64,000 nt of DNA from Phytophthora quininea (taxonomy: Eukaryota > Oomycota > Peronosporomycetes > Peronosporales > Peronosporaceae). Both the position numbers and the translations under genes were made by a program. How positions within the stretch are numbered: the stretch's first letter is position 1; each line of letters starts with the position of its first letter. The notes below the pieces were generated by a model that was not told the origin of the DNA, searched no databases, and saw only the letters and a list, made by a program, of their open reading frames with translations. Positions 6,411 through 57,994 of this stretch are shown here, piece after piece. The stretch spans positions 62,001 through 126,000 of the forward strand of contig JAAVTG010000152.1 of assembly GCA_011947345.1 (NCBI GenBank), read 5' to 3'.

Positions 6411-6450
6411 GACCGATACTGGACCATCGAAATAAAACCCTTTCAAATTG

Positions 6451-6463: not shown

Positions 6464-6470
6464 AATCGCG

Positions 6471-9400: not shown

Positions 9401-9888
9401 CGCCGGGCCAGAAGCGCAAGGTGGTTGTGTTTTCGCAGTGGACGTCCATGCTCGAGATGGTGTCGCAGCTGCTAAAGCGCAATGGCTTTTCGCACTGCAT
9501 GTTCAACGGCGCGCTCAACCAGGAAGCTCGCGAGCGGGTGTTGACAAAGTTTGCGAAGGACCCGGACATGGAGGTTCTTGTGATCAGTCTGAAGGCAGGC
9601 GGCGTAGGGCTCAACCTCACGTGCGCGTCGGTGGTTATTCTCTTGGATCCGTGGTGGAACCCTGGCGTCGAAGAGCAGGCAATCGACCGCGTCCATCGCT
9701 TGGGGCAGACCCGAGATGTGCTGGTGAAGCGCTACGTGGTGAAGGACACGGTGGAGGACATGATCCTGCAGCTGCAGCAGCGCAAGGAGAAGCTCGCCAA
9801 GCACGTTCTGGTGGTGGCAAAGACTCACGACGACCGGCGCAGCGAGCGACTCAACCTCGACGACCTCCGAAGCTTCTTCCACAACTGA
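6471..9888 (+). CDS. RAD5: RAD5/HLTF-type SNF2 helicase with RanBP2 zinc finger, HIRAN and RING domains
   Basis: Exons 6471-7179, 7241-7647, 7716-7848 and 7913-9888 give about 1074 residues. N-terminal RanBP2 zinc finger: WSCSRCTF...CAIC. Then a UBA-like helical segment, a HIRAN domain (split by intron 1; binds 3' ends of stalled forks in HLTF), and the SNF2 ATPase with motif I DDMGMGKT (split by intron 3), DEAH box (LDEAHSIKNR) and motif III LTGTPIQNS. A C3HC4 RING is inserted between the helicase lobes (CPICLD...CAHLLCEPC...CPVC), followed by the C-terminal lobe with IDRVHRLGQTRDV. This order is that of Rad5/HLTF, which polyubiquitinates PCNA and reverses stalled forks in the nucleus. Two frame slips, at AAA 6663-6665 (one base too many) and TTTT 7322-7325 (one too few), cancel in length. 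Orthology to RAD5 versus RAD16-like paralogues rests on the HIRAN domain. Confidence 0.92.
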
Positions 9889-11096: not shown

Positions 11097-11330
11097 ACGA
11101 GCACGACCGTCACGACAAGAAGCCGCACCAAGAGCTCGTCACGCACGGAGGCCACCACGACAAGTAGCGATTCGTCACGCACGACGGCCACTACGACCAG
11201 AAGCCGCACCAAGCGCTCGTCATCAGTGGCGGCCGCCACGACCAGAAGCCGCACCAAATGCTCATCCTCCGCGAAGGCCACCACGGCGCCCAGTAGCAGC
11301 AAGAGCTCCGGCGCAACTACCATGATGCCC
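11097..11330. repeat. Imperfect tandem repeat, about 45-bp unit, roughly five copies
   Basis: Units built on CACGACCAGAAGCCGCACCA followed by a GCTCGTCA-type segment and GGCCGCCAC recur from about 11097 to 11330 with many differences. The DNA reads as Ser/Thr/Arg/Lys-rich in one frame and His/Lys/Gln-rich in another. No clear gene covers it. It lies just upstream of the Crypton coding region. Confidence 0.5.
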
Positions 11331-19447: not shown

Positions 19448-19728
19448 GGTGGCGCGTTGCTTGATAGGTGAGCCAAAGTTTGAATCCCTATTACACGTTT
19501 TGTGAATCGCTCCTACATTGCTCTTCGCTTTCCTCGTGGCTATTGCCAGCTTCGTACTCGGCATGCAGCTTGGCTTGGTCTGCTGAGGGGAGATCCGAGC
19601 CCGGGCCACGTGGTTCTTTCCATCTACGCAATATGTATTATTTGCCACGAAACTAGCTAGCTAGTTGAGTTACTGCATGCCTTACGCAGACGTCGTGGGG
19701 CTGCCCTTGGTGGCGTGGCGTGAGGTCG

Positions 19729-20310
19729 TCACGTGCTTGGTGCCTCGCGGGAGATTACCTCTTCCGTGATCACCGTGTACCCTCCCGCCACAGAGATTTG
19801 GCGCTTCGTCGTCGACCCCGGCGAAGTGACCGGCAACGAACTCGTCGTCGTCTTAGTCGTCACGGGTGAAGAGTACGACGTCGTCGTGGTCGAACTCTTG
19901 GTCACTGTCGGGGAAGCGTAGCCGGCTGCACCCGCGCTGCTGCTCACCGATTTCTTCGACTCGGGCGACGAGTACGAGGTGATCCTCATACTACGCGTAG
20001 CCTTGCCCGATTGCGGGGACACAAAGCCTACCGGTGAACGGGGTGGCGATTTAGTCGGAGACCCCTGCGCAAAGCGGTGCTTGAGCTGGCGCCGCAGTGG
20101 CGAGTACGACGTACTCAACCTGGCAGTGGAGCTGCTGCGCATGGGACTGCCAACAGGGGTGCTCGATCGAGACGGACCACCAGCGCCAGGGGCGCCCGTG
20201 ATCATTACCATATCATCGGCGAACTTCATCAGGCCGGTAAACATGCGGCTGCGGCGGAGCTGTCGCTGGTTGTTGAACCCTTGGATCATTGTCACTTGGT
20301 GGTGGACTTG
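19729..20310 (-). other. Ser/Thr/Pro-rich C-terminal tail of the giant protein
   Basis: About 190 codons, low in complexity: RSSSTPVGSPMRSSS, repeated SYSSP and TKSPPRSP elements, a TTTTTSYSSP-like block, and a final ISVAGGYTVITEEVISREA. Many SP/TP pairs would suit proline-directed phosphorylation, which is inference. The tail ends in TGA at 19729-19731. It is open without a break from 20466. Confidence 0.65.
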
Positions 20311-23300
20311 TTGTTCCTCATTCAACTTGAGCAGGTAATCCGACATCGACAGACCCGAGGGCACACAAATCCGAGCTCTTGGAAGTATGCAATGAGAGAC
20401 TCGCCAGTGCCATGGAACAGCACTTCGCCGTTTTCGAGGATCAGAACGTCCTCGTAGTAGGCGCACTTCTTCGGAACAACCTGCAGCGCAGAGAGCACGA
20501 ATTCGACTTCCATCAACGGTTTTCCATCATGGCCATCGCGGCGGCGGCATACCTCGTCGATTAGCAGCGTTCGCTGGAACTTGCCAACTCCAAGGCCCAA
20601 TTCCTGCACAGCAACACCTGGATAGTGGAACGACAGTGAGCGAGCGATCGTCCACGTGGCTCGCTTTTCCTCGTACGTGCCAGAATTGAAGAACCCGTCC
20701 TCAAAGCTAACAAAGTTTTGGTCACAGAAGTCCCGAGCAAAGTTGAGTAGCTCCTTTCTCGGCATACTCTTGGAGAGCTTCCTGCCGCGACGTTGCACGT
20801 AGGACACGAACTGGGGCAACCACGTCTTGACAAGGCGACGACGTTTCATACGTGACCATGCCGAACCTTCACCGGTTCTTTCGGCGGTATTCACAGTCAA
20901 AGCAGATTTTTCCTCCAACATTTCCGAACAAGTCACAGACACCGACCGGCGACTACCGTCCGTACCCACAATACCTGAGACGTTGATCATACCAACAACA
21001 GCAGAGCTGTCCTCCACCTCCTCACGGGTCTCCGTGTTCGACGTCGTGCTCGTCTCGCCCGTAGGCGACTTCGTCACAGTCGTCGACACCACCGTGATCA
21101 GTCTCTTTACCACGCCCGTCGAAGTGGTCACCTTTCTGATGGTCGTGCGCACCGTCCTCGTGGTCACGCTTCCGTTCGCACCGGCCGACCGGAACACCTC
21201 CGTCTTCACCGTCGCGCCGGCCGCACCGTCCTCACCCTCTTCCTGTTCCATCGACGAGCTGACAAGAGTCTCGTTCGACATCGCCGGGGTCGTGGAAACA
21301 GCAGAGCTGTCCTCCACCTCCTCACGGGTCTCCGTGTTCGACGTCGTGCTCGTCTCGCCCGTAGGCGACTTCGTCACAGTCGTCGACACCACCGTGATCA
21401 GTCTCTTTACCACGCCCGTCGAAGTGGTCACCTTTCTGATGGTCGTGCGCACCGTCCTCGTGGTCACGCTTCCGTTCGCACCGGCCGACCGGAACACCTC
21501 CGTCTTCACCGTCGCGCCGGCCGCACCGTCCTCACCCTCTTCCTGTTCCATCGACGAGCTGACAAGAGTCTCGTTCGACATCGCCGGGGTCGTGGAAACA
21601 GCAGAGCTGTCCTCCACCTCCTCACGGGTCTCCGTGTTCGACGTCGTGCTCGTCTCGCCCGTAGGCGACTTCGTCACAGTCGTCGACACCACCGTGATCA
21701 GTCTCTTTACCACGCCCGTCGAAGTGGTCACCTTTCTGATGGTCGTGCGCACCGTCCTCGTGGTCACGATTCCGTTCGCACCGGCCGACCGGAACACCTC
21801 CGTCTTCACCGTCGCGCCGGCCGCACCGTCCTCACCCTCTTCCTGTTCCATCGACGAGCTGACAAGAGTCTCGTTCGACATCGCCGGGGTCGTGGAAACA
21901 GCAGAGCTGTCCTCCACCTCCTCACGGGTCTCCGTGTTCGACGTCGTGCTCGTCTCGCCCGTAGGCGACTTCGTCACAGTCGTCGACACCACCGTGATCA
22001 GTCTCTTTACCACGCCCGTCGAAGTGGTCACCTTTCTGATGGTCGTGCGCACCGTCCTCGTGGTCACGATTCCGTTCGCACCGGCCGACCGGAACACCTC
22101 CGTCTTCACCGTCGCGCCGGCCGCACCGTCCTCACCCTCTTCCTGTTCCATCGACGAGCTGACAAGAGTCTCGTTCGACATCGCCGGGGTCGTGGAAACA
22201 GCAGAGCTGTCCTCCACCTCCTCACGGGTCTCCGTGTTCGACGTCGTGCTCGTCTCGCCTGTAGGCGACTTCGTCACAGTCGTCGACACCACCGTGATCA
22301 GTCTCTTTACCACGCCCGTCGAAGTGGTCACCTTTCTGATGGTCGTGCGCACCGTCCTCGTGGTCACGATTCCGTTCGCACCGGCCGACCGGAACACCTC
22401 CGTCTTCACCGTCGCGCCGGCCGCACCGTCCTCACCCTCTTCCTGTTCCATCGACGAGCTGACAAGAGTCTCGTTCGACATCGCCGGGGTCGTGGAAACA
22501 GCAGAGCTGTCCTCCACCTCCTCACGGGTCTCCGTGTTCGACGTCGTGCTCGTCTCGCCCGTAGGCGACTTCGTCACAGTCGTCGACACCACCGTGATCA
22601 GTCTCTTTACCACGCCCGTCGAAGTGGTCACCTTTCTGATGGTCGTGCGCACCGTCCTCGTGGTCACGCTTCCGTTCGCACCGGCCGACCGGAACACCTC
22701 CGTCTTCACCGTCGCGCCGGCCGCACCGTCCTCACCCTCTTCCTGTTCCATCGACGAGCTGACAAGAGTCTCGTTCGACATCGCCGGGGTCGTGGAAACA
22801 GCAGAGCTGTCCTCCACCTCCTCACGGGTCTCCGTGTTCGACGTCGTGCTCGTCTCGCCCGTAGGCGACTTCGTCACAGTCGTCGACACCACCGTGATCA
22901 GTCTCTTTACCACGCCCGTCGAAGTGGTCACCTTTCTGATGGTCGTGCGCACCGTCCTCGTGGTCACGCTTCCGTTCGCACCGGCCGACCGGAACACCTC
23001 CGTCTTCACCGTCGCGCCGGCCGCACCGTCCTCACCCTCTTCCTGTTCCATCGACGAGCTGACAAGAGTCTCGTTCGACATCGCCGGGGTCGTGGAAACA
23101 GCAGAGCTGTCCTCCACCTCCTCACGGGTCTCCGTGTTCGACGTCGTGCTCGTCTCGCCCGTAGGCGACTTCGTCACAGTCGTCGACACCACCGTGATCA
23201 GTCTCTTTACCACGCCCGTCGAAGTGGTCACCTTTCTGATGGTCGTGCGCACCGTCCTCGTGGTCACGCTTCCGTTCGCACCGGCCGACCGGAACACCTC

Positions 23301-26300
23301 CGTCTTCACCGTCGCGCCGGCCGCACCGTCCTCACCCTCTTCCTGTTCCATCGACGAGCTGACAAGAGTCTCGTTCGTCGTTTCCTCCGTCGTGGTGGTC
23401 GGCGTCCTCGGTCGTCTCGAACGTCTCGGTGATCTCGGTGATCTCGGTCACTTCCGTGGTCTCCTCCACCTCCGTGGTCTCCTCAGTCGTGTCCTTGGTC
23501 GGCTTGCGCTTCGGCTTGCGGTGCTTCTTCGACTTGGGCTTCTTGCCCTCCGTCACGTCAGCCTCCTCCACCGTCACCTCCGTCTCCTCCACGGTCTCGG
23601 TCGTCTCGGTCGTCTCCTCCGTCGTGGTGGTCGGCGTCCTCGGTCGTCTCGAACGTCTCGGTGATCTCGGTGATCTCGGTCACTTCCGTGGTCTCCTCCA
23701 CCTCCGTGGTCTCCTCGGTCGTGTCCTTGGTCGGCTTGCGCTTCGGCTTGCGGTGCTTCTTCGACTTGGGCTTCTTGCCCTCCGTCACGTCAGCCTCCTC
23801 CACCGTCACCTCCGTCTCCTCCACGGTCTCGGTCGTCTCGAACGTCACCTCCGTCGTGGTCGGCACGTCCTCGGTCGTCTCGGTCGTCTCGGTCACTTCC
23901 GTCACCTCGGTCACCTCGGTCGTCTCCTCCGTCGTGGTGGTCGGCACGTCCTCGGTCGTCTCGAACGTCTCGGTGATCTCGGTGATCTCGGTCACTTCCG
24001 TGGTCTCCTCCACCTCCGTGGTCTCCTCGGTCGTGTCCTTGGTCGGCTTGCGCTTCGGCTTGCGGTGCTTCTTCGACTTGGGCTTCTTGCCCTCCGTCAC
24101 GTCAGCCTCCTCCACCGTCACCTCCGTCTCCTCCACGGTCTCGGTCGTCTCGAACGTCACCTCCGTCGTGGTCGGCACGTCCTCGGTCGTCTCGGTCGTC
24201 TCGGTCACTTCCGTCACCTCCGTCACCTCGCTCGTCTCTTCGGGCTTCGACTCGGTCACCTCGGTCACCTCGGTCGTCTCCTCCGTCGTGGTGGTCGGCA
24301 CGTCCTCGGTCGTCTCGAACGTCTCGGTCACTTCCGTCACCTCCGTCACCTCGGTCGTCTCCTCCGTCGTGGTGGTCGGCACGTCCTCGGTCGTCTCGAA
24401 CGTCTCGGTGATCTCGGTGATCTCGGTCACTTCCGTGGTCTCCTCCACCTCCGTGGTCTCCTCGGTCGTGTCCTTGGTCGGCTTGCGCTTCGGCTTGCGG
24501 TGCTTCTTCGACTTGGGCTTCTTGCCCTCCGTCACGTCAGCCTCCTCCACCGTCACCTCCGTCTCCTCCACGGTCTCGGTCGTCTCGAACGTCACCTCCG
24601 TCGTGGTCGGCACGTCCTCGGTCGTCTCGGTCGTCTCGGTCACTTCCGTCACCTCCGTCACCTCGCTCGTCTCTTCGGGCTTCGACTCGGTCACCTCGGT
24701 CACCTCGGTCGTCTCCTCCGTCGTGGTGGTCGGCGTCCTCGGTCGTCTCGAACGTCTCGGTCACTTCCGTCACCTCCGTCACCTCGGTCGTCTCCTCCGT
24801 CGTGGTGGTCGGCACGTCCTCGGTCGTCTCGAACGTCTCGGTGATCTCGGTGATCTCGGTCACTTCCGTGGTCTCCTCCACCTCCGTGGTCTCCTCGGTC
24901 GTGTCCTTGGTCGGCTTGCGCTTCGGCTTGCGGTGCTTCTTCGACTTGGGCTTCTTGCCCTCCGTCACGTCAGCCTCCTCCACCGTCACCTCCGTCTCCT
25001 CCACGGTCTCGGTCGTCTCGAACGTCACCTCCGTCGTGGTCGGCACGTCCTCGGTCGTCTCGGTCGTCTCGGTCACTTCCGTCACCTCCGTCACCTCGCT
25101 CGTCTCTTCGGGCTTCGACTCGGTCACCTCGGTCACCTCGGTCGTCTCTCCGTCGTGGTGGTCGGCGTCCTCGGTCGTCTCGAACGTCTCGGTCACTTCC
25201 GTCACCTCCGTCACCTCGGTCGTCTCCTCCGTCGTGGTGGTCGGCGTCCTCGGTCGTCTCGAACGTCTCGGTGATCTCGGTGATCTCGGTCACTTCCGTG
25301 GTCTCCTCCACCTCCGTGGTCTCCTCGGTCGTGTCCTTGGTCGGCTTGCGCTTCGGCTTGCGGTGCTTCTTCGACTTGGGCTTCTTGCCCTCCGTCACGT
25401 CAGCCTCCTCCACCGTCACCTCCGTCTCCTCCACGGTCTCGGTCGTCTCGAACGTCACCTCCGTCGTGGTCGGCACGTCCTCGGTCGTCTCGGTCGTCTC
25501 GGTCACTTCCGTCACCTCCGTCACCTCGCTCGTCTCTTCGGGCTTCGACTCGGTCACCTCGGTCACCTCGGTCGTCTCCTCCGTCGTGGTGGTCGGCACG
25601 TCCTCGGTCGTCTCGAACGTCTCGGTCACTTCCGTCACCTCCGTCACCTCGGTCGTCTCCTCCGTCGTGGTGGTCGGCACGTCCTCGGTCGTCTCGAACG
25701 TCTCGGTGATCTCGGTGATCTCGGTCACTTCCGTGGTCTCCTCCACCTCCGTGGTCTCCTCGGTCGTGTCCTTGGTCGGCTTGCGCTTCGGCTTGCGGTG
25801 CTTCTTCGACTTGGGCTTCTTGCCCTCCGTCACGTCAGCCTCCTCCACCGTCACCTCCGTCTCCTCCACGGTCTCGGTCGTCTCGAACGTCACCTCCGTC
25901 GTGGTCGGCACGTCCTCGGTCGTCTCGGTCGTCTCGGTCACTTCCGTCACCTCCGTCACCTCGCTCGTCTCTTCGGGCTTCGACTCGGTCACCTCGGTCA
26001 CCTCGGTCGTCTCCTCCGTCGTGGTGGTCGGCACGTCCTCGGTCGTCTCGAACGTCTCGGTCACTTCCGTCACCTCCGTCACCTCGGTCGTCTCCTCCGT
26101 CGTGGTGGTCGGCACGTCCTCGGTCGTCTCGAACGTCTCGGTGATCTCGGTGATCTCGGTCACTTCCGTGGTCTCCTCCACCTCCGTGGTCTCCTCGGTC
26201 GTGTCCTTGGTCGGCTTGCGCTTCGGCTTGCGGTGCTTCTTCGACTTGGGCTTCTTGCCCTCCGTCACGTCAGCCTCCTCCACCGTCACCTCCGTCTCCT

Positions 26301-29300
26301 CCACGGTCTCGGTCGTCTCGAACGTCACCTCCGTCGTGGTCGGCACGTCCTCGGTCGTCTCGAACGTCTCGGTCACTTCCGTCACCTCCGTCACCTCGGT
26401 CGTCTCCTCCGTCGTGGTGGTCGGCACGTCCTCGGTCGTCTCGAACGTCTCGGTGATCTCGGTGATCTCGGTCACTTCCGTGGTCTCCTCCACCTCCGTG
26501 GTCTCCTCGGTCGTGTCCTTGGTCGGCTTGCGCTTCGGCTTGCGGTGCTTCTTCGACTTGGGCTTCTTGCCCTCCGTCACGTCAGCCTCCTCCACCGTCA
26601 CCTCCGTCTCCTCCACGGTCTCGGTCGTCTCGAACGTCACCTCCGTCGTGGTCGGCACGTCCTCGGTCGTCTCGGTCGTCTCGGTCACTTCCGTCACCTC
26701 CGTCACCTCGGTCGTCTCCTCCGTCGTGGTGGTCGGCACGTCCTCGGTCGTCTCGAACGTCTCGGTGATCTCGGTGATCTCGGTCACTTCCGTGGTCTCC
26801 TCCACCTCCGTGGTCTCCTCGGTCGTGTCCTTGGTCGGCTTGCGCTTCGGCTTGCGGTGCTTCTTCGACTTGGGCTTCTTGCCCTCCGTCACGTCAGCCT
26901 CCTCCACCGTCACCTCCGTCTCCTCCACGGTCTCGGTCGTCTCGAACGTCACCTCCGTCGTGGTCGGCACGTCCTCGGTCGTCTCGGTCGTCTCGGTCAC
27001 TTCCGTCACCTCCGTCACCTCGCTCGTCTCTTCGGGCTTCGACTCGGTCACCTCGGTCACCTCGGTCACCTCGGTCGTCTCCTCCGTCGTGGTGGTCGGC
27101 ACGTCCTCGGTCGTCTCGAACGTCTCGGTGATCTCGGTGATCTCGGTCACTTCCGTCACCTCCGTCACCTCCGTCACCTCGGTCGTCTCCTCCGTCGTGG
27201 TGGTCGGCACGTCCTCGGTCGTCTCGAACGTCTCGGTGATCTCGGTCACTTCCGTGGTCTCCTCCACCTCCGTGGTCTCCTCGGTCGTGTCCTTGGTCGG
27301 CTTGCGCTTCGGCTTGCGGTGCTTCTTCGACTTGGGCTTCTTGCCCTCCGTCACGTCAGCCTCCTCCACCGTCACCTCCGTCTCCTCCACGGTCTCGGTC
27401 GTCTCGAACGTCACCTCCGTCGTGGTCGGCACGTCCTCGGTCGTCTCGAACGTCTCGGTCACTTCCGTCACCTCCGTCACCTCGGTCGTCTCCTCCGTCG
27501 TGGTGGTCGGCGTCCTCGGTCGTCTCGAACGTCTCGGTGATCTCGGTGATCTCGGTCACTTCCGTGGTCTCCTCCACCTCCGTGGTCTCCTCGGTCGTGT
27601 CCTTGGTCGGCTTGCGCTTCGGCTTGCGGTGCTTCTTCGACTTGGGCTTCTTGCCCTCCGTCACGTCAGCCTCCTCCACCGTCACCTCCGTCTCCTCCAC
27701 GGTCTCGGTCGTCTCGAACGTCACCTCCGTCGTGGTCGGCGTCCTCGGTCGTCTCGGTCGTCTCGGTCACTTCCGTCACCTCCGTCACCTCGCTCGTCTC
27801 TTCGGGCTTCGACTCGGTCACCTCGGTCACCTCGGTCGTCTCCTCCGTCGTGGTGGTCGGCACGTCCTCGGTCGTCTCGAACGTCTCGGTCACTTCCGTC
27901 ACCTCCGTCACCTCGGTCGTCTCCTCCGTCGTGGTGGTCGGCACGTCCTCGGTCGTCTCGAACGTCTCGGTGATCTCGGTGATCTCGGTCACTTCCGTGG
28001 TCTCCTCCACCTCCGTGGTCTCCTCGGTCGTGTCCTTGGTCGGCTTGCGCTTCGGCTTGCGGTGCTTCTTCGACTTGGGCTTCTTGCCCTCCGTCACGTC
28101 AGCCTCCTCCACCGTCACCTCCGTCTCCTCCACGGTCTCGGTCGTCTCGAACGTCACCTCCGTCGTGGTCGGCGTCCTCGGTCGTCTCGGTCGTCTCGGT
28201 CACTTCCGTCACCTCCGTCACCTCGCTCGTCTCTTCGGGCTTCGACTCGGTCACCTCGGTCACCTCGGTCACCTCGGTCGTCTCCTCCGTCGTGGTGGTC
28301 GGCGTCCTCGGTCGTCTCGAACGTCTCGGTGATCTCGGTGATCTCGGTCACTTCCGTGGTCTCCTCCACCTCCGTGGTCTCCTCGGTCGTGTCCTTGGTC
28401 GGCTTGCGCTTCGGCTTGCGGTGCTTCTTCGACTTGGGCTTCTTGCCCTCCGTCACGTCAGCCTCCTCCACCGTCACCTCCGTCTCCTCCACGGTCTCGG
28501 TCGTCTCGAACGTCACCTCCGTCGTGGTCGGCACGTCCTCGGTCGTCTCGGTCGTCTCGGTCACTTCCGTCACCTCCGTCACCTCGCTCGTCTCTTCGGG
28601 CTTCGACTCGGTCACCTCGGTCACCTCGGTCGTCTCCTCCGTCGTGGTGGTCGGCGTCCTCGGTCGTCTCGAACGTCTCGGTGATCTCGGTGATCTCGGT
28701 CACTTCCGTGGTCTCCTCCACCTCCGTGGTCTCCTCGGTCGTGTCCTTGGTCGGCTTGCGCTTCGGCTTGCGGTGCTTCTTCGACTTGGGCTTCTTGCCC
28801 TCCGTCACGTCAGCCTCCTCCACCGTCACCTCCGTCTCCTCCACGGTCTCGGTCGTCTCGAACGTCACCTCCGTCGTGGTCGGCGTCCTCGGTCGTCTCG
28901 GTCGTCTCGGTCACTTCCGTCACCTCCGTCACCTCGCTCGTCTCTTCGGGCTTCGACTCGGTCACCTCGGTCACCTCGGTCACCTCGCTCGTCTCCTCCG
29001 TCGTGGTGGTCGGCACGTCCTCGGTCGTCTCGAACGTCTCGGTCACTTCCGTCACCTCCGTCACCTCGCTCGTCTCCTCCGTCGTGGTGGTCGGCGTCCT
29101 CGGTCGTCTCGAACGTCTCGGTGATCTCGGTGATCTCGGTCACTTCCGTGGTCTCCTCCACCTCCGTGGTCTCCTCGGTCGTGTCCTTGGTCGGCTTGCG
29201 CTTCGGCTTGCGGTGCTTCTTCGACTTGGGCTTCTTGCCCTCCGTCACGTCAGCCTCCTCCACCGTCACCTCCGTCTCCTCCACGGTCTCGGTCGTCTCG

Positions 29301-47300: not shown

Positions 47301-50300
47301 CGTCTCCGTGCGCGTGGTCGTGCGCACCGTCTTGGTCACGATGCGGCCGTCGGCCTCCTCGGAGCGGAACACCTCCGTCTTCACCGTCTCGCCGGGCTCA
47401 ACGCCAGCCTCCTCGGTCGAGCTGACCGCGATCATGCCCTCGGTGGACGCGATGTTCGACGTCGTCGTCGCAGCAGTCTCGGTGGCTGTCTCCGTCGTCG
47501 TCTCCGTCTCCACCGTCGTGCTCTTGTCGCCGCCCTTCGATTCCGTCTCGGTCGTCGTCTCCACTTCGATCGTCGTCACCAGCTCACCGGCCGCGGTCGT
47601 CTCCGTGCGCGTGGTCGTGCGCACCGTCTTGGTCACGATGCGGCCGTCGGCCTCCTCGGAGCGGAACACCTCCGTCTTCACCGTCTCGCCGGGCTCAACG
47701 CCAGCCTCCTCGGTCGAGCTGACCGCGATCATGCCCTCGGTGGACGCGATGTTCGACGTCGTCGTCGCAGCAGTCTCGGTGGCTGTCTCCGTCGTCGTCT
47801 CCGTCTCCACCGTCGTGCTCTTGTCGCCGCCCTTCGATTCCGTCTCGGTCGTCGTCTCCACTTCGATCGTCGTCACCAGCTCACCGGCCGCGGTCGTCTC
47901 CGTGCGCGTGGTCGTGCGCACCGTCTTGGTCACGATGCGGCCGTCGGCCTCCTCGGAGCGGAACACCTCCGTCTTCACCGTCTCGCCGGGCTCAACGCCA
48001 GCCTCCTCGGTCGAGCTGACCGCGATCATGCCCTCGGTGGACGCGATGTTCGACGTCGTCGTCGCAGCAGTCTCGGTGGCTGTCTCCGTCGTCGTCTCCG
48101 TCTCCACCGTCGTGCTCTTGTCGCCGCCCTTCGATTCCGTCTCGGTCGTCGTCTCCACTTCGATCGTCGTCACCAGCTCACCGGCCGCGGTCGTCTCCGT
48201 GCGCGTGGTCGTGCGCACCGTCTTGGTCACGATGCGGCCGTCGGCCTCCTCGGAGCGGAACACCTCCGTCTTCACCGTCTCGCCGGGCTCAACGCCAGCC
48301 TCCTCGGTCGAGCTGACCGCGATCATGCCCTCGGTGGACGCGATGTTCGACGTCGTCGTCGCAGCAGTCTCGGTGGCTGTCTCCGTCGTCGTCTCCGTCT
48401 CCACCGTCGTGCTCTTGTCGCCGCCCTTCGATTCCGTCTCGGTCGTCGTCTCCACTTCGATCGTCGTCACCAGCTCACCGGCCGCGGTCGTCTCCGTGCG
48501 CGTGGTCGTGCGCACCGTCTTGGTCACGATGCGGCCGTCGGCCTCCTCGGAGCGGAACACCTCCGTCTTCACCGTCTCGCCGGGCTCAACGCCAGCCTCC
48601 TCGGTCGAGCTGACCGCGATCATGCCCTCGGTGGACGCGATGTTCGACGTCGTCGTCGCAGCAGTCTCGGTGGCTGTCTCCGTCGTCGTCTCCGTCTCCA
48701 CCGTCGTGCTCTTGTCGCCGCCCTTCGATTCCGTCTCGGTCGTCGTCTCCACTTCGATCGTCGTCACCAGCTCACCGGCCGCGGTCGTCTCCGTGCGCGT
48801 GGTCGTGCGCACCGTCTTGGTCACGATGCGGCCGTCGGCCTCCTCGGAGCGGAACACCTCCGTCTTCACCGTCTCGCCGGGCTCAACGCCAGCCTCCTCG
48901 GTCGAGCTGACCGCGATCATGCCCTCGGTGGACGCGATGTTCGACGTCGTCGTCGCAGCAGTCTCGGTGGCTGTCTCCGTCGTCGTCTCCGTCTCCACCG
49001 TCGTGCTCTTGTCGCCGCCCTTCGATTCCGTCTCGGTCGTCGTCTCCACTTCGATCGTCGTCACCAGCTCACCGGCCGCGGTCGTCTCCGTGCGCGTGGT
49101 CGTGCGCACCGTCTTGGTCACGATGCGGCCGTCGGCCTCCTCGGAGCGGAACACCTCCGTCTTCACCGTCTCGCCGGGCTCAACGCCAGCCTCCTCGGTC
49201 GAGCTGACCGCGATCATGCCCTCGGTGGACGCGATGTTCGACGTCGTCGTCGCAGCAGTCTCGGTGGCTGTCTCCGTCGTCGTCTCCGTCTCCACCGTCG
49301 TGCTCTTGTCGCCGCCCTTCGATTCCGTCTCGGTCGTCGTCTCCACTTCGATCGTCGTCACCAGCTCACCGGCCGCGGTCGTCTCCGTGCGCGTGGTCGT
49401 GCGCACCGTCTTGGTCACGATGCGGCCGTCGGCCTCCTCGGAGCGGAACACCTCCGTCTTCACCGTCTCGCCGGGCTCAACGCCAGCCTCCTCGGTCGAG
49501 CTGACCGCGATCATGCCCTCGGTGGACGCGATGTTCGACGTCGTCGTCGCAGCAGTCTCGGTGGCTGTCTCCGTCGTCGTCTCCGTCTCCACCGTCGTGC
49601 TCTTGTCGCCGCCCTTCGATTCCGTCTCGGTCGTCGTCTCCACTTCGATCGTCGTCACCAGCTCACCGGCCGCGGTCGTCTCCGTGCGCGTGGTCGTGCG
49701 CACCGTCTTGGTCACGATGCGGCCGTCGGCCTCCTCGGAGCGGAACACCTCCGTCTTCACCGTCTCGCCGGGCTCAACGCCAGCCTCCTCGGTCGAGCTG
49801 ACCGCGATCATGCCCTCGGTGGACGCGATGTTCGACGTCGTCGTCGCAGCAGTCTCGGTGGCTGTCTCCGTCGTCGTCTCCGTCTCCACCGTCGTGCTCT
49901 TGTCGCCGCCCTTCGATTCCGTCTCGGTCGTCGTCTCCACTTCGATCGTCGTCACCAGCTCACCGGCCGCGGTCGTCTCCGTGCGCGTGGTCGTGCGCAC
50001 CGTCTTGGTCACGATGCGGCCGTCGGCCTCCTCGGAGCGGAACACCTCCGTCTTCACCGTCTCGCCGGGCTCAACGCCAGCCTCCTCGGTCGAGCTGACC
50101 GCGATCATGCCCTCGGTGGACGCGATGTTCGACGTCGTCGTCGCAGCAGTCTCGGTGGCTGTCTCCGTCGTCGTCTCCGTCTCCACCGTCGTGCTCTTGT
50201 CGCCGCCCTTCGATTCCGTCTCGGTCGTCGTCTCCACTTCGATCGTCGTCACCAGCTCACCGGCCGCGGTCGTCTCCGTGCGCGTGGTCGTGCGCACCGT

Positions 50301-53300
50301 CTTGGTCACGATGCGGCCGTCGGCCTCCTCGGAGCGGAACACCTCCGTCTTCACCGTCTCGCCGGGCTCAACGCCAGCCTCCTCGGTCGAGCTGACCGCG
50401 ATCATGCCCTCGGTGGACGCGATGTTCGACGTCGTCGTCGCAGCAGTCTCGGTGGCTGTCTCCGTCGTCGTCTCCGTCTCCACCGTCGTGCTCTTGTCGC
50501 CGCCCTTCGATTCCGTCTCGGTCGTCGTCTCCACTTCGATCGTCGTCACCAGCTCACCGGCCGCGGTCGTCTCCGTGCGCGTGGTCGTGCGCACCGTCTT
50601 GGTCACGATGCGGCCGTCGGCCTCCTCGGAGCGGAACACCTCCGTCTTCACCGTCTCGCCGGGCTCAACGCCAGCCTCCTCGGTCGAGCTGACCGCGATC
50701 ATGCCCTCGGTGGACGCGATGTTCGACGTCGTCGTCGCAGCAGTCTCGGTGGCTGTCTCCGTCGTCGTCTCCGTCTCCACCGTCGTGCTCTTGTCGCCGC
50801 CCTTCGATTCCGTCTCGGTCGTCGTCTCCACTTCGATCGTCGTCACCAGCTCACCGGCCGCGGTCGTCTCCGTGCGCGTGGTCGTGCGCACCGTCTTGGT
50901 CACGATGCGGCCGTCGGCCTCCTCGGAGCGGAACACCTCCGTCTTCACCGTCTCGCCGGGCTCAACGCCAGCCTCCTCGGTCGAGCTGACCGCGATCATG
51001 CCCTCGGTGGACGCGATGTTCGACGTCGTCGTCGCAGCAGTCTCGGTGGCTGTCTCCGTCGTCGTCTCCGTCTCCACCGTCGTGCTCTTGTCGCCGCCCT
51101 TCGATTCCGTCTCGGTCGTCGTCTCCACTTCGATCGTCGTCACCAGCTCACCGGCCGCGGTCGTCTCCGTGCGCGTGGTCGTGCGCACCGTCTTGGTCAC
51201 GATGCGGCCGTCGGCCTCCTCGGAGCGGAACACCTCCGTCTTCACCGTCTCGCCGGGCTCAACGCCAGCCTCCTCGGTCGAGCTGACCGCGATCATGCCC
51301 TCGGTGGACGCGATGTTCGACGTCGTCGTCGCAGCAGTCTCGGTGGCTGTCTCCGTCGTCGTCTCCGTCTCCACCGTCGTGCTCTTGTCGCCGCCCTTCG
51401 ATTCCGTCTCGGTCGTCGTCTCCACTTCGATCGTCGTCACCAGCTCACCGGCCGCGGTCGTCTCCGTGCGCGTGGTCGTGCGCACCGTCTTGGTCACGAT
51501 GCGGCCGTCGGCCTCCTCGGAGCGGAACACCTCCGTCTTCACCGTCTCGCCGGGCTCAACGCCAGCCTCCTCGGTCGAGCTGACCGCGATCATGCCCTCG
51601 GTGGACGCGATGTTCGACGTCGTCGTCGCAGCAGTCTCGGTGGCTGTCTCCGTCGTCGTCTCCGTCTCCACCGTCGTGCTCTTGTCGCCGCCCTTCGATT
51701 CCGTCTCGGTCGTCGTCTCCACTTCGATCGTCGTCACCAGCTCACCGGCCGCGGTCGTCTCCGTGCGCGTGGTCGTGCGCACCGTCTTGGTCACGATGCG
51801 GCCGTCGGCCTCCTCGGAGCGGAACACCTCCGTCTTCACCGTCTCGCCGGGCTCAACGCCAGCCTCCTCGGTCGAGCTGACCGCGATCATGCCCTCGGTG
51901 GACGCGATGTTCGACGTCGTCGTCGCAGCAGTCTCGGTGGCTGTCTCCGTCGTCGTCTCCGTCTCCACCGTCGTGCTCTTGTCGCCGCCCTTCGATTCCG
52001 TCTCGGTCGTCGTCTCCACTTCGATCGTCGTCACCAGCTCACCGGCCGCGGTCGTCTCCGTGCGCGTGGTCGTGCGCACCGTCTTGGTCACGATGCGGCC
52101 GTCGGCCTCCTCGGAGCGGAACACCTCCGTCTTCACCGTCTCGCCGGGCTCAACGCCAGCCTCCTCGGTCGAGCTGACCGCGATCATGCCCTCGGTGGAC
52201 GCGATGTTCGACGTCGTCGTCGCAGCAGTCTCGGTGGCTGTCTCCGTCGTCGTCTCCGTCTCCACCGTCGTGCTCTTGTCGCCGCCCTTCGATTCCGTCT
52301 CGGTCGTCGTCTCCACTTCGATCGTCGTCACCAGCTCACCGGCCGCGGTCGTCTCCGTGCGCGTGGTCGTGCGCACCGTCTTGGTCACGATGCGGCCGTC
52401 GGCCTCCTCGGAGCGGAACACCTCCGTCTTCACCGTCTCGCCGGGCTCAACGCCAGCCTCCTCGGTCGAGCTGACCGCGATCATGCCCTCGGTGGACGCG
52501 ATGTTCGACGTCGTCGTCGCAGCAGTCTCGGTGGCTGTCTCCGTCGTCGTCTCCGTCTCCACCGTCGTGCTCTTGTCGCCGCCCTTCGATTCCGTCTCGG
52601 TCGTCGTCTCCACTTCGATCGTCGTCACCAGCTCACCGGCCGCGGTCGTCTCCGTGCGCGTGGTCGTGCGCACCGTCTTGGTCACGATGCGGCCGTCGGC
52701 CTCCTCGGAGCGGAACACCTCCGTCTTCACCGTCTCGCCGGGCTCAACGCCAGCCTCCTCGGTCGAGCTGACCGCGATCATGCCCTCGGTGGACGCGATG
52801 TTCGACGTCGTCGTCGCAGCAGTCTCGGTGGCTGTCTCCGTCGTCGTCTCCGTCTCCACCGTCGTGCTCTTGTCGCCGCCCTTCGATTCCGTCTCGGTCG
52901 TCGTCTCCACTTCGATCGTCGTCACCAGCTCACCGGCCGCGGTCGTCTCCGTGCGCGTGGTCGTGCGCACCGTCTTGGTCACGATGCGGCCGTCGGCCTC
53001 CTCGGAGCGGAACACCTCCGTCTTCACCGTCTCGCCGGGCTCAACGCCAGCCTCCTCGGTCGAGCTGACCGCGATCATGCCCTCGGTGGACGCGATGTTC
53101 GACGTCGTCGTCGCAGCAGTCTCGGTGGCTGTCTCCGTCGTCGTCTCCGTCTCCACCGTCGTGCTCTTGTCGCCGCCCTTCGATTCCGTCTCGGTCGTCG
53201 TCTCCACTTCGATCGTCGTCACCAGCTCACCGGCCGCGGTCGTCTCCGTGCGCGTGGTCGTGCGCACCGTCTTGGTCACGATGCGGCCGTCGGCCTCCTC

Positions 53301-56300
53301 GGAGCGGAACACCTCCGTCTTCACCGTCTCGCCGGGCTCAACGCCAGCCTCCTCGGTCGAGCTGACCGCGATCATGCCCTCGGTGGACGCGATGTTCGAC
53401 GTCGTCGTCGCAGCAGTCTCGGTGGCTGTCTCCGTCGTCGTCTCCGTCTCCACCGTCGTGCTCTTGTCGCCGCCCTTCGATTCCGTCTCGGTCGTCGTCT
53501 CCACTTCGATCGTCGTCACCAGCTCACCGGCCGCGGTCGTCTCCGTGCGCGTGGTCGTGCGCACCGTCTTGGTCACGATGCGGCCGTCGGCCTCCTCGGA
53601 GCGGAACACCTCCGTCTTCACCGTCTCGCCGGGCTCAACGCCAGCCTCCTCGGTCGAGCTGACCGCGATCATGCCCTCGGTGGACGCGATGTTCGACGTC
53701 GTCGTCGCAGCAGTCTCGGTGGCTGTCTCCGTCGTCGTCTCCGTCTCCACCGTCGTGCTCTTGTCGCCGCCCTTCGATTCCGTCTCGGTCGTCGTCTCCA
53801 CTTCGATCGTCGTCACCAGCTCACCGGCCGCGGTCGTCTCCGTGCGCGTGGTCGTGCGCACCGTCTTGGTCACGATGCGGCCGTCGGCCTCCTCGGAGCG
53901 GAACACCTCCGTCTTCACCGTCTCGCCGGGCTCAACGCCAGCCTCCTCGGTCGAGCTGACCGCGATCATGCCCTCGGTGGACGCGATGTTCGACGTCGTC
54001 GTCGCAGCAGTCTCGGTGGCTGTCTCCGTCGTCGTCTCCGTCTCCACCGTCGTGCTCTTGTCGCCGCCCTTCGATTCCGTCTCGGTCGTCGTCTCCACTT
54101 CGATCGTCGTCACCAGCTCACCGGCCGCGGTCGTCTCCGTGCGCGTGGTCGTGCGCACCGTCTTGGTCACGATGCGGCCGTCGGCCTCCTCGGAGCGGAA
54201 CACCTCCGTCTTCACCGTCTCGCCGGGCTCAACGCCAGCCTCCTCGGTCGAGCTGACCGCGATCATGCCCTCGGTGGACGCGATGTTCGACGTCGTCGTC
54301 GCAGCAGTCTCGGTGGCTGTCTCCGTCGTCGTCTCCGTCTCCACCGTCGTGCTCTTGTCGCCGCCCTTCGATTCCGTCTCGGTCGTCGTCTCCACTTCGA
54401 TCGTCGTCACCAGCTCACCGGCCGCGGTCGTCTCCGTGCGCGTGGTCGTGCGCACCGTCTTGGTCACGATGCGGCCGTCGGCCTCCTCGGAGCGGAACAC
54501 CTCCGTCTTCACCGTCTCGCCGGGCTCAACGCCAGCCTCCTCGGTCGAGCTGACCGCGATCATGCCCTCGGTGGACGCGATGTTCGACGTCGTCGTCGCA
54601 GCAGTCTCGGTGGCTGTCTCCGTCGTCGTCTCCGTCTCCACCGTCGTGCTCTTGTCGCCGCCCTTCGATTCCGTCTCGGTCGTCGTCTCCACTTCGATCG
54701 TCGTCACCAGCTCACCGGCCGCGGTCGTCTCCGTGCGCGTGGTCGTGCGCACCGTCTTGGTCACGATGCGGCCGTCGGCCTCCTCGGAGCGGAACACCTC
54801 CGTCTTCACCGTCTCGCCGGGCTCAACGCCAGCCTCCTCGGTCGAGCTGACCGCGATCATGCCCTCGGTGGACGCGATGTTCGACGTCGTCGTCGCAGCA
54901 GTCTCGGTGGCTGTCTCCGTCGTCGTCTCCGTCTCCACCGTCGTGCTCTTGTCGCCGCCCTTCGATTCCGTCTCGGTCGTCGTCTCCACTTCGATCGTCG
55001 TCACCAGCTCACCGGCCGCGGTCGTCTCCGTGCGCGTGGTCGTGCGCACCGTCTTGGTCACGATGCGGCCGTCGGCCTCCTCGGAGCGGAACACCTCCGT
55101 CTTCACCGTCTCGCCGGGCTCAACGCCAGCCTCCTCGGTCGAGCTGACCGCGATCATGCCCTCGGTGGACGCGATGTTCGACGTCGTCGTCGCAGCAGTC
55201 TCGGTGGCTGTCTCCGTCGTCGTCTCCGTCTCCACCGTCGTGCTCTTGTCGCCGCCCTTCGATTCCGTCTCGGTCGTCGTCTCCACTTCGATCGTCGTCA
55301 CCAGCTCACCGGCCGCGGTCGTCTCCGTGCGCGTGGTCGTGCGCACCGTCTTGGTCACGATGCGGCCGTCGGCCTCCTCGGAGCGGAACACCTCCGTCTT
55401 CACCGTCTCGCCGGGCTCAACGCCAGCCTCCTCGGTCGAGCTGACCGCGATCATGCCCTCGGTGGACGCGATGTTCGACGTCGTCGTCGCAGCAGTCTCG
55501 GTGGCTGTCTCCGTCGTCGTCTCCGTCTCCACCGTCGTGCTCTTGTCGCCGCCCTTCGATTCCGTCTCGGTCGTCGTCTCCACTTCGATCGTCGTCACCA
55601 GCTCACCGGCCGCGGTCGTCTCCGTGCGCGTGGTCGTGCGCACCGTCTTGGTCACGATGCGGCCGTCGGCCTCCTCGGAGCGGAACACCTCCGTCTTCAC
55701 CGTCTCGCCGGGCTCAACGCCAGCCTCCTCGGTCGAGCTGACCGCGATCATGCCCTCGGTGGACGCGATGTTCGACGTCGTCGTCGCAGCAGTCTCGGTG
55801 GCTGTCTCCGTCGTCGTCTCCGTCTCCACCGTCGTGCTCTTGTCGCCGCCCTTCGATTCCGTCTCGGTCGTCGTCTCCACTTCGATCGTCGTCACCAGCT
55901 CACCGGCCGCGGTCGTCTCCGTGCGCGTGGTCGTGCGCACCGTCTTGGTCACGATGCGGCCGTCGGCCTCCTCGGAGCGGAACACCTCCGTCTTCACCGT
56001 CTCGCCGGGCTCAACGCCAGCCTCCTCGGTCGAGCTGACCGCGATCATGCCCTCGGTGGACGCGATGTTCGACGTCGTCGTCGCAGCAGTCTCGGTGGCT
56101 GTCTCCGTCGTCGTCTCCGTCTCCACCGTCGTGCTCTTGTCGCCGCCCTTCGATTCCGTCTCGGTCGTCGTCTCCACTTCGATCGTCGTCACCAGCTCAC
56201 CGGCCGCGGTCGTCTCCGTGCGCGTGGTCGTGCGCACCGTCTTGGTCACGATGCGGCCGTCGGCCTCCTCGGAGCGGAACACCTCCGTCTTCACCGCTGG

Positions 56301-57994
56301 GTCCGGTTGTGCAGTTCGGTGGACTTTGGCGCTTGACCAGTTGGAAATGATTTTTTCGCGGCTGCCTTTGTTGTCAATGGTGGCCCATCGGATTGCGAAG
56401 CAAACCAAGACATGAGCCAATGTCCTGCGTCGAAATCATTCACATCTTCATTTTCGTCGCTGTCAAACGTATCGCCGTCCGGATGTAGATGATACATGAA
56501 CGCGCCAGGAGCAGGTTTATCGGATGCCTCTGCCTTTCTTGCAGATGACTGTGCGTTGCTAAAGCATCCGATGTTCATCAAGTGATTGTCGCTCTCGTCG
56601 ACAATGGGCGATTTAGATAGCATCACGACTTCGTCAGCCATTCTAAAGAGCACGGTTGGTTTGGTAACCGCTTCTCGTTTATCAAACAGCGCAGCCGACA
56701 CCTTCTGCGACCCATATTTATTGCTGAGGCACACGGCCACATCTTTCTCTGAAGGACACGCAACACCAAGTTCTTGGACGTACTTAATGACCTCTTGCCA
56801 TCTTCCACTATACACAATTTCTCCATCATTCAGCACAATGGCATTCTCCGCACCCGTGCAGTTGTCAGACGACTCCTGCAACAGCGAAATCACAATCACC
56901 TTGCGCAACCACTTAGACATACGACGATGAATCGAGATGAACTCAAACGACGACTCATTGCCCACAGGGACTTGGTCCATGAGGATCATGTTGGTTCTGC
57001 TGAACCGCAGGCCACGACGACAGATACGAAACTCGGGGTAGTACAGCGTGAAGGCGCGGGAGAGCCCCAGGCCGCTTTCCGCTCCTTGGCGCGACGCTCC
57101 GCAAGGAAAAGCGCACGCTCTGCCTGACTTTTTCTTGGTCTTTCTCTTCGTCCACATCGTAAGACAACACTCGATAGCGGCAAAACGCACGCGCAAAAAT
57201 GAAGAGCTCCACGGCTGTCACCGCCTTGGAGTGTCGGCTGTGGCTCATCACATACTCGAGGAAGGCAGGTAGCCACTGCTTAAAGTCCTCCTTCGTCATC
57301 TCTCCAGCTTCGCTGGTGGTCACGATGCCACTCTTCTTGGAGTGGCGGTCCGGCGACACGACAGTGCTCGTGAACAACACGCCTGAGGTATCTCCTAGAC
57401 TGCGTAGCGAGGGATCACGCTCCGTACTCTTAATGCCCATGGCGGCGGCAATGGCGCTACCGCTCCAGGCGTGCCACGCGAGCTCCTCCTCGAGGCTCTG
57501 CGCGCTTTTTCTGCTCGCTCACGAGCTCAAAGTCTGCGACGGCACTGGCAGCGGCTACTGCCGTGGGGCTCGCAGCTTGCTGGGCAACGTCCAGCTCGGT
57601 CTCCGTGGTGGTGACGGTCTCGGTGGTCGTGGTGCTGGATCCATCCGGCTGGGTCACCACCGTGGTGATGGTACAGCCGTCGGCGCTGGTCGTGACGGCC
57701 GTCGTGGTGCCGTCCTTGGCGGTGGTGACAACCGTGTTGGGGGAGCCCCCTTTCCTGCTTGTCTTGCTTCTTGGCGCTGCTGGCCTCACGTGCCGGCGGG
57801 CTGCGGATGACCATGGGGTGCTGCAGTCGCGCGTCGTCCGCGGCGACCTCGTTGGACTCGGTGCCGCCCATGCTGGTCGAGGCTGTTTGCTCGGGTCTCT
57901 CGCTCTCGTCGCTCGGCTCTGCTTTCCTGGCACTTGGCGTCCGTGGAGCAAAAGCGATTGTGGAGCGGCAGGATCCAGAGAGCATGGCCTTCAA
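19729..57994 (-). CDS. Giant repeat protein gene with two degenerate PDR-type ABC folds (possibly several genes)
   Basis: Read on the minus strand from ATG 57994 (or 57985) to TGA 19729. Order: Ser/Thr-rich N-terminus, PDR-like fold A, 33.5 units of 99 residues, Ser/Thr linker, about 22.7 kb of Thr-Glu-Val repeats with Lys/Arg islands, eight 100-residue units, PDR-like fold B, Ser/Thr/Pro tail. Continuity is supported at both array junctions. At 46.1 kb the first array's frame, after its TAA, runs straight into TTLQKPTEVEETTEV. At 23.38 kb the Thr-Glu-Val array fuses to NETLVSSSMEQEE of the 100-residue units. No new promoter or ATG-led domain is visible between. If single, the gene has about 12,755 codons. 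Breaks include the G run 57732-57741, A5 near 57507, a region about 57060-57150, 56293, about 46.24 and 46.17 kb, GGG 20359-20361, and many 2-base variants in the middle array. Those last could mean pseudogenisation. No signal peptide or membrane segment is seen. Confidence 0.5.
20311..20985 (-). other. Degenerate ABCG/PDR nucleotide-binding fold B
   Basis: Directly after the 300-bp array, in the same frame, come INVSGIV and EKSALTV (where PDR proteins have NVSGVF and the GKS of Walker A), WLPQFVSYV...ELLNFARDFC, a SFHYPG and QELGLG segment, LLIDEV (Walker B-like), then VLILENGEVLFHG and FQELGFVCP. After a slip at GGG 20359-20361, SDYLLKLNEEQQ matches the PDR DYLLDLGTxQQ end. The signature motif is replaced by about ten unrelated residues, and the Walker A glycines and the D-loop are lost. 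The fold is thus retained without ATPase residues. It is similar to fold A, so the two are paralogous. Confidence 0.72.
20998..23376 (-). repeat. 300-bp coding tandem array, 7.9 copies
   Basis: Copies begin at 21001, 21301, 21601, 21901, 22201, 22501, 22801 and 23101, exactly 300 bp apart. The 100-residue unit contains MSNETLVSSSMEQEEGEDG, then VKTEVFRSAGANG and TRTVRTTIRKVTTSTG, and is open throughout in frame with the following PDR-like fold B. Variants are few. Copies 3-5 (21.6-22.5 kb) have ATT where the others have CTT on the plus strand (Ser to Ile), and one copy has a silent T at 22260. The last copy diverges at 23377, where it fuses to the Thr-Glu-Val array. Confidence 0.95.
23377..46104 (-). 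repeat. 22.7-kb higher-order Thr-Glu-Val coding repeat with Lys/Arg islands
   Basis: Two alternating blocks build it. Block A (77 codons) begins VPTTTEVTFETTETVEE, contains the basic island KKPKSKKHRKPKRKP, and ends EITEITETFETTED. Block B (44 codons, or a 27-codon short form) begins VPTTTTEETTEV and often contains SKPEETSEV. A plus B is 121 codons (363 bp). By eye I count about 53 basic islands. Block order, B length and EVTEVTE number vary along the array. The minus frame is broken repeatedly by a 2-base variant, GGCACGTCC to GGCGTCC on the plus strand, and by rarer single losses (for example near 25146, 30895, 36660 and 37178). The longest open minus-strand stretch is 24970-27480. Confidence 0.9.
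46105..46353 (-). other. Ser/Thr-rich linker between the 99-residue array and the Thr-Glu-Val array
   Basis: After the last 297-bp unit the frame encodes STADSSVEDTSEEPNWFMA and a Lys/Arg-rich segment, then reaches TAA at 46167 at the start of an A5 run. The other two frames each carry Ser/Thr-rich text in parts of this stretch (SSSSRTISTTPSRK; TSTTTPNKTILAQNTT). The second is in frame with the stop-containing ORF and with the next array. Two single-base slips, in the CCCAAAA run near 46235 and the A5 run near 46163, would join everything into one Ser/Thr-rich linker. I saw no clear core promoter here. Confidence 0.5.
46354..56296 (-). repeat. 297-bp coding tandem array, 33.5 copies
   Basis: The landmark ATCGTCGTCACCAGC recurs from 46381 to 56182 at exactly 297-bp steps (33 intervals). 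The 99-residue unit runs from VKTEVFRSEEADGR through TVRTTTRTETTAAGEL, a Thr/Glu block with SKGGDKS, NIASTEGMIAV and EAGVEPGET. All units translate identically, and I saw no base differences by eye. It is one uninterrupted minus-strand frame from about 56290 to 46167. The unit is acidic, Thr-rich and free of Cys and Trp. It is homologous in its first third to the 100-residue unit at 21.0-23.4 kb. Confidence 0.95.
56715..57350 (-). other. Degenerate ABCG/PDR nucleotide-binding fold A
   Basis: In order along the protein the region keeps landmarks of the first nucleotide-binding domain of oomycete PDR transporters. These are QWLPAFLEYV and ELFIFARAFC (after the Walker A helix), LYYPEF, a Walker B-like MILMDQV, the following RRMSKWLRKVIVISLLQ (H-loop strand region), and VLNDGEIVYSG...VQELGVACPSEKDVA. 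The VSGGERKR-type signature segment is missing, and upstream only KKSG remains where GxxGxGKS is expected. It therefore cannot be a working ATPase. Frame is lost around 57060-57150 and the alignment there is approximate. The PDR comparison is from family knowledge, not from a search. Confidence 0.7.

Follow-up and report, generated by a model that had tools for sequence, protein, structure and literature searches.

The window analysed here, 64,000 nucleotides of the Phytophthora quininea genome (GenBank assembly GCA_011947345.1, contig JAAVTG010000152.1, positions 62,001 to 126,000, forward strand), contains a repeat-rich minus-strand locus in which two degenerate nucleotide-binding domains (NBDs) of ABC type, here called pseudo-NBD1 and pseudo-NBD2, enclose three tandem arrays. 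Judged by its sequence and that of its relatives, the locus is very probably one gene. This is the best reading because the deposited protein models P0007 (Peronosclerospora sorghi, 1345 amino acids (aa), 13.7-Mb contig) and P0014 (P. boehmeriae, 1106 aa, 6.3-kb contig) each join pseudo-NBD1, repeats and pseudo-NBD2. An earlier note, made from the letters of the window, had proposed such a single gene joining fold, arrays and fold, and partial junctions in other species agree with it as well. The fuller proposal, in which a gene of ~38 kb (~12,700 codons if read through) would encode a giant cytoplasmic, membrane-anchored tether or scaffold, is held with moderate confidence.

Layout of the locus

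Every part of the locus lies on the minus strand in a single orientation, from a start codon at 57871 to ~19688. The coordinates and repeat counts confirm the mirrored order of fold, array, array, array and fold given in the earlier note. Its limits of 19729 and 57994 have been corrected at both ends: in tblastn comparisons with relatives, the homology of the tail reaches 19688, beyond a stop at 19729. The parts are, in window coordinates:

57737..57871, minus strand: N-terminus, Met at 57871, MGGTESNEV...; tblastn, start in common with 10 database proteins and a paralogue on contig C909
57496..57822, minus strand: Thr-rich N-terminal block, predicted beta-hairpins; tblastn, 58-66% identity to P0007, P0026 and P0014, with DG spacing and predicted strands
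56384..57512, minus strand: pseudo-NBD1, a degenerate PDR/ABCG NBD with a WLMSWF motif at its end, in three frames; assigned by homology
46323..56294, minus strand: 99-residue Thr/Glu-rich array, 33 base-identical 297-bp units and one partial unit; repeat analysis
46110..46322, minus strand: unique linker with a WFMALF motif and a stop codon at 46167; frame equal on both sides
23385..46110, minus strand: central Thr-Glu-Val array, a polyampholyte with 52 basic KKPKSKKHRKPKRKP blocks; frame shifts at one recurrent motif of two length classes
20997..23377, minus strand: 100-residue Thr/Ser/Val-rich array, 8 copies; repeat analysis
20361..21059, minus strand: linker and pseudo-NBD2, the best conserved part of the family seen here, with a Walker B-like LLIDE kept
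19688..20370, minus strand: C-terminal tail, Ser/Pro-rich, then a Thr-rich strand block; 56-78% identity to P0007 and P0001, in frames unlike those of pseudo-NBD2

The 99-residue array has 34 unit starts, and all 33 full intervals are 99 aa long and identical in DNA; it lies within an open frame of 3422 aa (46167-56435). In the 100-residue array (7.9 copies), 8 unit starts were counted, and the 7 intervals between them come as three DNA variants. Among the 51 intervals between the KKPKSKKHRKPKRKP blocks of the central array, 22 are divisible by three and 29 are not. The term polyampholyte, first applied to the whole protein, fits the central array best and does not suit the outer arrays, which are Thr/Glu-rich or Thr/Ser/Val-rich. 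GC at the third codon position of the minus frame is 0.92 and 0.82, and plus-strand open reading frames (ORFs) of >3000 aa were dismissed as shadows of this GC-rich frame.

Relatives join the two halves of the locus

Proteins that link the PDR-like fold to the repeat units were found in several oomycete species. A joint-profile protein search, which scored the 7996 candidates sharing most words under limits on protein length, found 22 proteins. The pseudo-NBD2 search gave 16 proteins, 15 of them members of the family (Phytophthora, Nothophytophthora, Peronospora, Peronosclerospora, Plasmopara, Bremia and P0015), and four proteins were matched by pseudo-NBD1. In six of the ten fetched pseudo-NBD1 proteins (P0007, P0017, P0019, P0027-P0029), pseudo-NBD1 continues into a 99-type unit; the run from the Thr-Glu-Val array through 100-type units to pseudo-NBD2 is continuous in P0001-P0006, P0012 and P0014. 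Many other records are partial, beginning or ending within an array. Gene sets truncate the gene or omit it, probably owing to assembly breaks at the arrays. The model of P0012 (Nothophytophthora) extends past the tail into a coiled-coil-like part (residues 850-1435, weak Cnn_1N match, E 0.0014), perhaps a neighbouring gene fused by annotation.

Several points weigh against a single gene. P0007 is without the Thr-Glu-Val array, P0014 has neither 99-type units nor the front of pseudo-NBD2, and both joined models are automatic predictions with few units. The alternative is that two or three genes lie side by side, one made of pseudo-NBD1 and the 99-residue array up to the stop at 46167, and a separate one of the Thr-Glu-Val array, the 100-residue array and pseudo-NBD2. 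In keeping with this arrangement, the frame of the 99-residue array does stop at 46167 after a unique linker that no aligned relative spans, most records contain one half only, and P0003 and P0011 are annotated to begin inside the Thr-Glu-Val array. However, the halves are joined in P0007 and P0014, and many half records are partial and begin in an array, as expected from assembly breaks at repeats. The C909 sister locus, described below, also opens in like manner and extends to a pseudo-NBD. At 46 kb, one frame carries both the 99-residue array and the first central unit, with a single stop between the two; since this shared frame and its stop cut both ways, they leave the odds on one gene unchanged. 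We regard adjacent genes as unlikely and one gene as the better reading.

Two conserved domains of PDR type without an ATP site

The two folds are paralogous, as first proposed: an alignment of pseudo-NBD1 and pseudo-NBD2 has 30 invariant columns over nine rows, and the window's pseudo-NBD1 was matched by pseudo-NBD2 proteins at E 2e-11 and 6e-14. Their PDR-like nature was likewise borne out. In its own genome, an 87-Mb assembly of 993 contigs, pseudo-NBD1 matched other sites with identities reaching 36% (E 2e-14); the two such matches that were scanned contain ABC_tran and ABC2-membrane with the NBD first, as in ABCG/PDR transporters. Pseudo-NBD2 matched a P. fragariaefolia protein with ABC_tran and ABC2_membrane (E 1e-8), and a joint profile of both domains matched ABCG25, ABCG5 and a pleiotropic drug efflux transporter (7p03) in the PDB at E 1e-4 to 2e-3. 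The similarity to PDR/ABCG proteins spans the helical subdomain and the C-terminal half of the NBD. Together, these matches support derivation of both folds from a PDR-type transporter domain.

The motifs of the ATP site are largely missing from this part of the protein. All nine pseudo-NBD rows begin downstream of the Walker A position in the PDR-type protein P0016, and the stretch with the ABC signature motif is absent from nine of nine rows in the alignment with P0016; the Walker B-like LLIDE is retained in pseudo-NBD2. No Pfam match to ABC2_membrane passed the cut-off, and P0013 has a weak match to PF19055 (E 0.03) that lies under it. The losses common to both folds suggest that an already degenerate domain was duplicated.

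The earlier note had called these folds dead, which holds for the ATP site and is not supported for the domains as such. Over a 160-residue core of pseudo-NBD2, the mean identity of a sequence to the others was 0.83-0.94 in 20 of 21 sequences (several of them from P. cactorum) and 0.68 in P0015; the window's core, at 0.92, is no outlier. The C-terminal half of pseudo-NBD1 is looser (0.54-0.71 over 11 sequences). The strong conservation of pseudo-NBD2 does not support a reading of the folds as decayed. The predicted models are weak, with a mean predicted local distance difference test score (pLDDT) of 53 and 44 and values <50 over most of pseudo-NBD2, and Foldseek with both models returned no match at E <= 0.001. 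The ABC relationship therefore stands on sequence.

Frame breaks in the window

As assembled, the window contains no continuous frame through the locus. Outside the repeats there are 7 frame changes, 5 in the N-terminal 1.6 kb and 2 in the part with pseudo-NBD2 and the tail, often next to short homopolymers (judged by eye). The central array contains many more, and the linker at 46 kb contains the stop at 46167. All of this counts against an intact gene, as does the finding that two neighbouring 2-kb ORFs, which were picked for their length, are without frame changes. In the earlier note, both array junctions read through with one or two base corrections. The 46-kb junction is one frame interrupted by one stop, and the 23.4-kb junction has one further frame change, at the recurrent motif of the central array.

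The breaks in the central array fall mostly at that one motif, of which 94 copies are full and 50 are two bases shorter. The order of full and short copies is random (66 runs vs 66.3 +/- 5.4 expected), and both lengths occur within 11 shared 45-base contexts (66 full, 36 short). Since the breaks are in random order and not clustered, consensus error is likelier than inherited deletions spread by unit duplication. The short motif with its downstream context occurs 35 times in the genome, always in the central array; the full motif with context occurs 57 times in the central array and once on C481, and the genome thus offers no real outside control. In an HSP90 control (the genes behind 18 matches), the copies on C376 and C514 fall into pieces that overlap on one strand and that on C71 into several pieces, whereas the copies on C379, C569 and C568 and one on C374 are open. 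Given the open HSP90 copies and intact neighbouring ORFs, a bad consensus alone is no obvious explanation of the local excess of breaks.

A family that is functional elsewhere with a broken copy in this isolate would account for the 7 frame changes and the stop found outside the repeats, near two unbroken 2-kb ORFs, and for the 29 of 51 central-array intervals that are not multiples of three. Such local decay is nevertheless improbable: the pseudo-NBD2 core is conserved as in other species, the central breaks mostly belong to a single two-base class that is spread randomly among identical contexts, and some HSP90 copies are split too. Moreover, only 13 of the 103 other pseudo-NBD1 matches lie in open frames of at least 1200 aa (median 550), for which introns, contig ends and pseudogenes are possible causes. 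Collectively, the frame breaks look mostly like assembly errors.

A sister giant locus with annexin modules

Contig C909 was matched by both the 99-residue unit and pseudo-NBD2 of the window. The sister locus, comparable in size to the locus of the window, extends over C909:13651-50900 and starts with MGGAESTEM at 13651. Its first array has 97-residue units, with 26 intervals in the first long frame and two DNA versions; its second has 103-residue units that are identical in DNA in 44 of 45 intervals. An open frame of 4994 aa joins this second array to a pseudo-NBD at the frame's end, and nine annexin modules of ~1239 bp (~413 aa) each follow the pseudo-NBD (Pfam PF00191, E 1e-195). Over its last repeat unit and pseudo-NBD, the sister locus shares 33% identity with the window, and between its pseudo-NBD and the one in P0015 the identity is 38%. 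P0015 itself joins annexin repeats to a pseudo-NBD, on a 3.9-kb contig that could be chimeric, and suggests that the annexin link is older. We infer that the sister locus is one gene, and here too there are contrary signs, since frame changes occur outside the 4994-aa ORF, at the start, in the first array and in the annexin row. No annexin was found by Pfam in seven pieces of the window at E <= 1.

A stand-alone annexin gene nearly identical to the array modules lies at C909:77915-79105, which suggests recent capture or conversion. The same contig has a further long open frame (C909:69176-76780, 2534 aa) with DGTYGIEYDDGD... near its end, possibly another repeat protein. Weak matches of the C909 annexin ORF to Clenterotox, DUF3848, Cmr2_hel_dom1, Spectrin_6, VASP_tetra and RRG8 were set aside, since they reach the whole-protein cut-off only as a sum of repeated weak hits.

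Uniform arrays and concerted evolution

The 100-type units are nearly identical within sequences and diverge between them. Over a 46-residue core, identity within a sequence is at least 0.986 in nine of the ten sequences with two or more units, Bremia being at 0.70, and the first units of different sequences have a mean identity of 0.72 (78 pairs, same-species pairs included). Unit spacing ranges from 96 to 110 aa across sequences. As an exception, the cores of P. fragariae and P. sojae are identical despite spacings of 98 and 100 aa. The near-identity of units within most species is, by sequence comparison, concerted evolution; consensus polishing may inflate the uniformity of the arrays in the assembly. 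The arrays are short and degenerate in Bremia (P0013), Peronosclerospora (P0007, 99-type identity 0.63) and Plasmopara (P0011), which retain the pseudo-NBDs. This tells against a general need for the arrays: long uniform arrays are not essential everywhere.

The 33 and 44 base-identical units resemble the outcome of molecular drive, as they would if the arrays were satellite-like DNA with open frames as by-products and genes only in the short domains. This explanation is very improbable: GC by codon position is coding-like, units of different species are partly alike in protein sequence (mean identity 0.72 and 0.82) and have conserved turns, gene models of several species read through the units, and frames are open for 3422 and 4994 aa.

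No second central array was found in the genome, only short scattered fragments. Thr-Glu-Val fragments far from the array lie at C58:33048, C481:22495, C421:16409, C874:15438-19223 and C301:191960 (best pieces 83-92%), and a degenerate piece of the 99-residue unit lies at C89:346701-348700 in a short frame of 125 aa. The 99-residue unit had no match up to E 10 among PDB sequences.

N-terminus, hydropathy and predicted structure

Directly after the initiator Met, a pattern of the N-myristoylation type, G-{EDRKHPFYW}-x(2)-[STAGCN]-{P}, is present in 10 of 10 fetched pseudo-NBD1 proteins, in the window and on C909, with MGGxES common to the window gene and its sister. In all, 34 proteins were fetched, of which 25 begin with Met; the other 15 of these are not pseudo-NBD1 proteins. 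By hydropathy, without a dedicated predictor, no signal peptide-like stretch was seen in ten N-terminally complete relatives (peak <=0.64 in the first 40 residues). No transmembrane-like segment was seen in 12 relatives, whose 19-residue hydropathy peak is 1.14-1.49 vs 2.10 in a PDR control. The family has so far been found in Peronosporaceae, and its protein appears to be soluble and cytoplasmic.

The Thr-rich composition leads to a different idea, a secreted mucin-like surface or wall protein with O-glycans on its arrays, forming a coat on hyphae or cysts. The arrays are indeed high in Thr/Ser, annexin homologues are placed in the cell-wall proteomes of P. ramorum and P. infestans in a review (PMC4656261), and Phytophthora surface repeat proteins are known from another (PMC4617103). 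Against this stand the MGGxES start and an N-terminus without a hydrophobic stretch in the ten relatives (hydropathy only). NBD and annexin domains are, besides, of cytosolic types. A secreted protein is accordingly quite doubtful, although unconventional secretion of the giant protein may occur. A flagellar or zoospore structure is disfavoured because Peronospora, Bremia and Peronosclerospora, which are lineages not known to form zoospores, keep the family.

In the N-terminal block, DG turns recur every 11-12 residues in 7 relatives, with one gap of 23, and five strands are predicted in P0018, mostly at pLDDT 50-60. In the AlphaFold model, each 100-residue unit has five strands, predicted as beta-hairpins, at a pLDDT of mostly 50-78 that drops where units join, and the Thr-Glu-Val part is disordered. 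VIA structure matches were mostly beta-barrels and OspA, with CPAP among others for the N-terminal block, at middling Z scores (best 7.7 and 10.3). Tcp10/G-box had no Pfam match in the scans. Weak Pfam matches to repetitive sequence were set aside, namely CCDC106 and PCSK9_C1 (both under cut-off) and FAF (30.4 bits, cut-off 25) in the window pieces and DUF4124 (25.0, cut-off 22) in the scan of relatives; where such matches exceed the cut-off, they do so only by summed repeats and in no single stretch.

Neighbouring sequence

Long open frames near the locus encode a radical SAM/UPF0004 protein (4644-6614), an SNF2-RING-helicase (7888-9888) and a WD40 protein (146-1594). A 45-bp tandem repeat (11111-11285) lies within a plus-strand ORF (10648-11325) without a Pfam match.

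A proposed tether and its closest known systems

The simplest reading of these parts would be a tether or scaffold that is anchored to a membrane and docks through its pseudo-NBDs. An N-terminal lipid would anchor the predicted protein to a membrane, the Thr-rich arrays would form long beta-meander rods, and the Thr-Glu-Val/basic array would act as an entropic spring or brush. The pseudo-NBDs would serve for binding and not as ATPases, whether they bind each other, ABCG transporters or some other partner; combined, the parts could make a long tether or cortical scaffold that links the membrane to a partner. The annexin row of the sister protein may provide a second, calcium-dependent membrane contact. 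The idea of a domesticated transporter fragment turned scaffold thus keeps its PDR-type descent, with the scaffold role still conjectural. In Saprolegnia, an oomycete annexin is reported to activate a glucan synthase (PMC4656261), and a connection with the synthesis of wall material at the plasma membrane is therefore possible.

More tentatively, and we consider this rather unlikely as a whole, Peronosporaceae may have built giant intracellular tethers from one truncated ABC domain, as paired, titin-like proteins of ~12,000 residues with pseudo-NBD or annexin ends. Their myristoylated end would sit at the membrane, concerted evolution would keep their beta-rods uniform, the pseudo-NBDs would dock on ABCG pumps or a cortical partner, and the annexin row would close a calcium-controlled membrane bridge. 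If the locus makes one polypeptide, it would be among the largest oomycete proteins (an estimate, as no ranking was made), with an ABC domain recycled as a non-catalytic module that is conserved across a family of plant pathogens. Its homogenised arrays (33 of 33 units in the window and 44 of 45 on C909 identical in DNA) allow concerted evolution to be studied within a coding sequence, and the sister with its annexins offers a direct and testable connection to membrane tethering that depends on calcium in tip-growing hyphae. The core architecture of the earlier note stood; the sister annexin gene, the MGGxES start and concerted evolution, not visible from the letters of the window, had no place in it.

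That note knew of no described family of this kind, and we found no description of this architecture, nor any mention of P. sojae 520947/536511 or PITG_08656-08658, in the open-licence PMC literature. The parts are of known kinds, and the combination appears to be undescribed. Oomycete repeat effectors and surface proteins share tandem repeats, but the window protein appears to be without a signal peptide-like N-terminus; an architecture of this kind is not named in the passages on repeat proteins of the review concerned (PMC4617103). PDR/ABCG transporters share the sequence similarity of the NBD, but have a Walker A, a signature motif and a transmembrane domain, whereas the pseudo-NBDs are without all three and are joined to giant arrays. 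Annexins are represented by the nine modules of the C909 sister and by P0015, which couples annexin repeats to a pseudo-NBD, and are missing from the window pieces. Tandem annexin modules behind repeat arrays are, to our knowledge, not an ordinary form of the annexin family. The single-layer beta-meanders of OspA and of the CPAP/Sas-4 TCP (G-box) domain are also among the closest known systems: the CPAP TCP domain is a single-layer sheet with PDG turns, as described in PMC3776556, and the DG turns of the N-terminal block resemble it.

Titin has a PEVK spring between arrays of beta-domains. The window protein differs from it in sequence and lineage, and the Pfam scans of the seven window pieces gave no titin or Ig family; by analogy, however, a charged segment that is predicted to be disordered would likewise be flanked here by beta-rich arrays.

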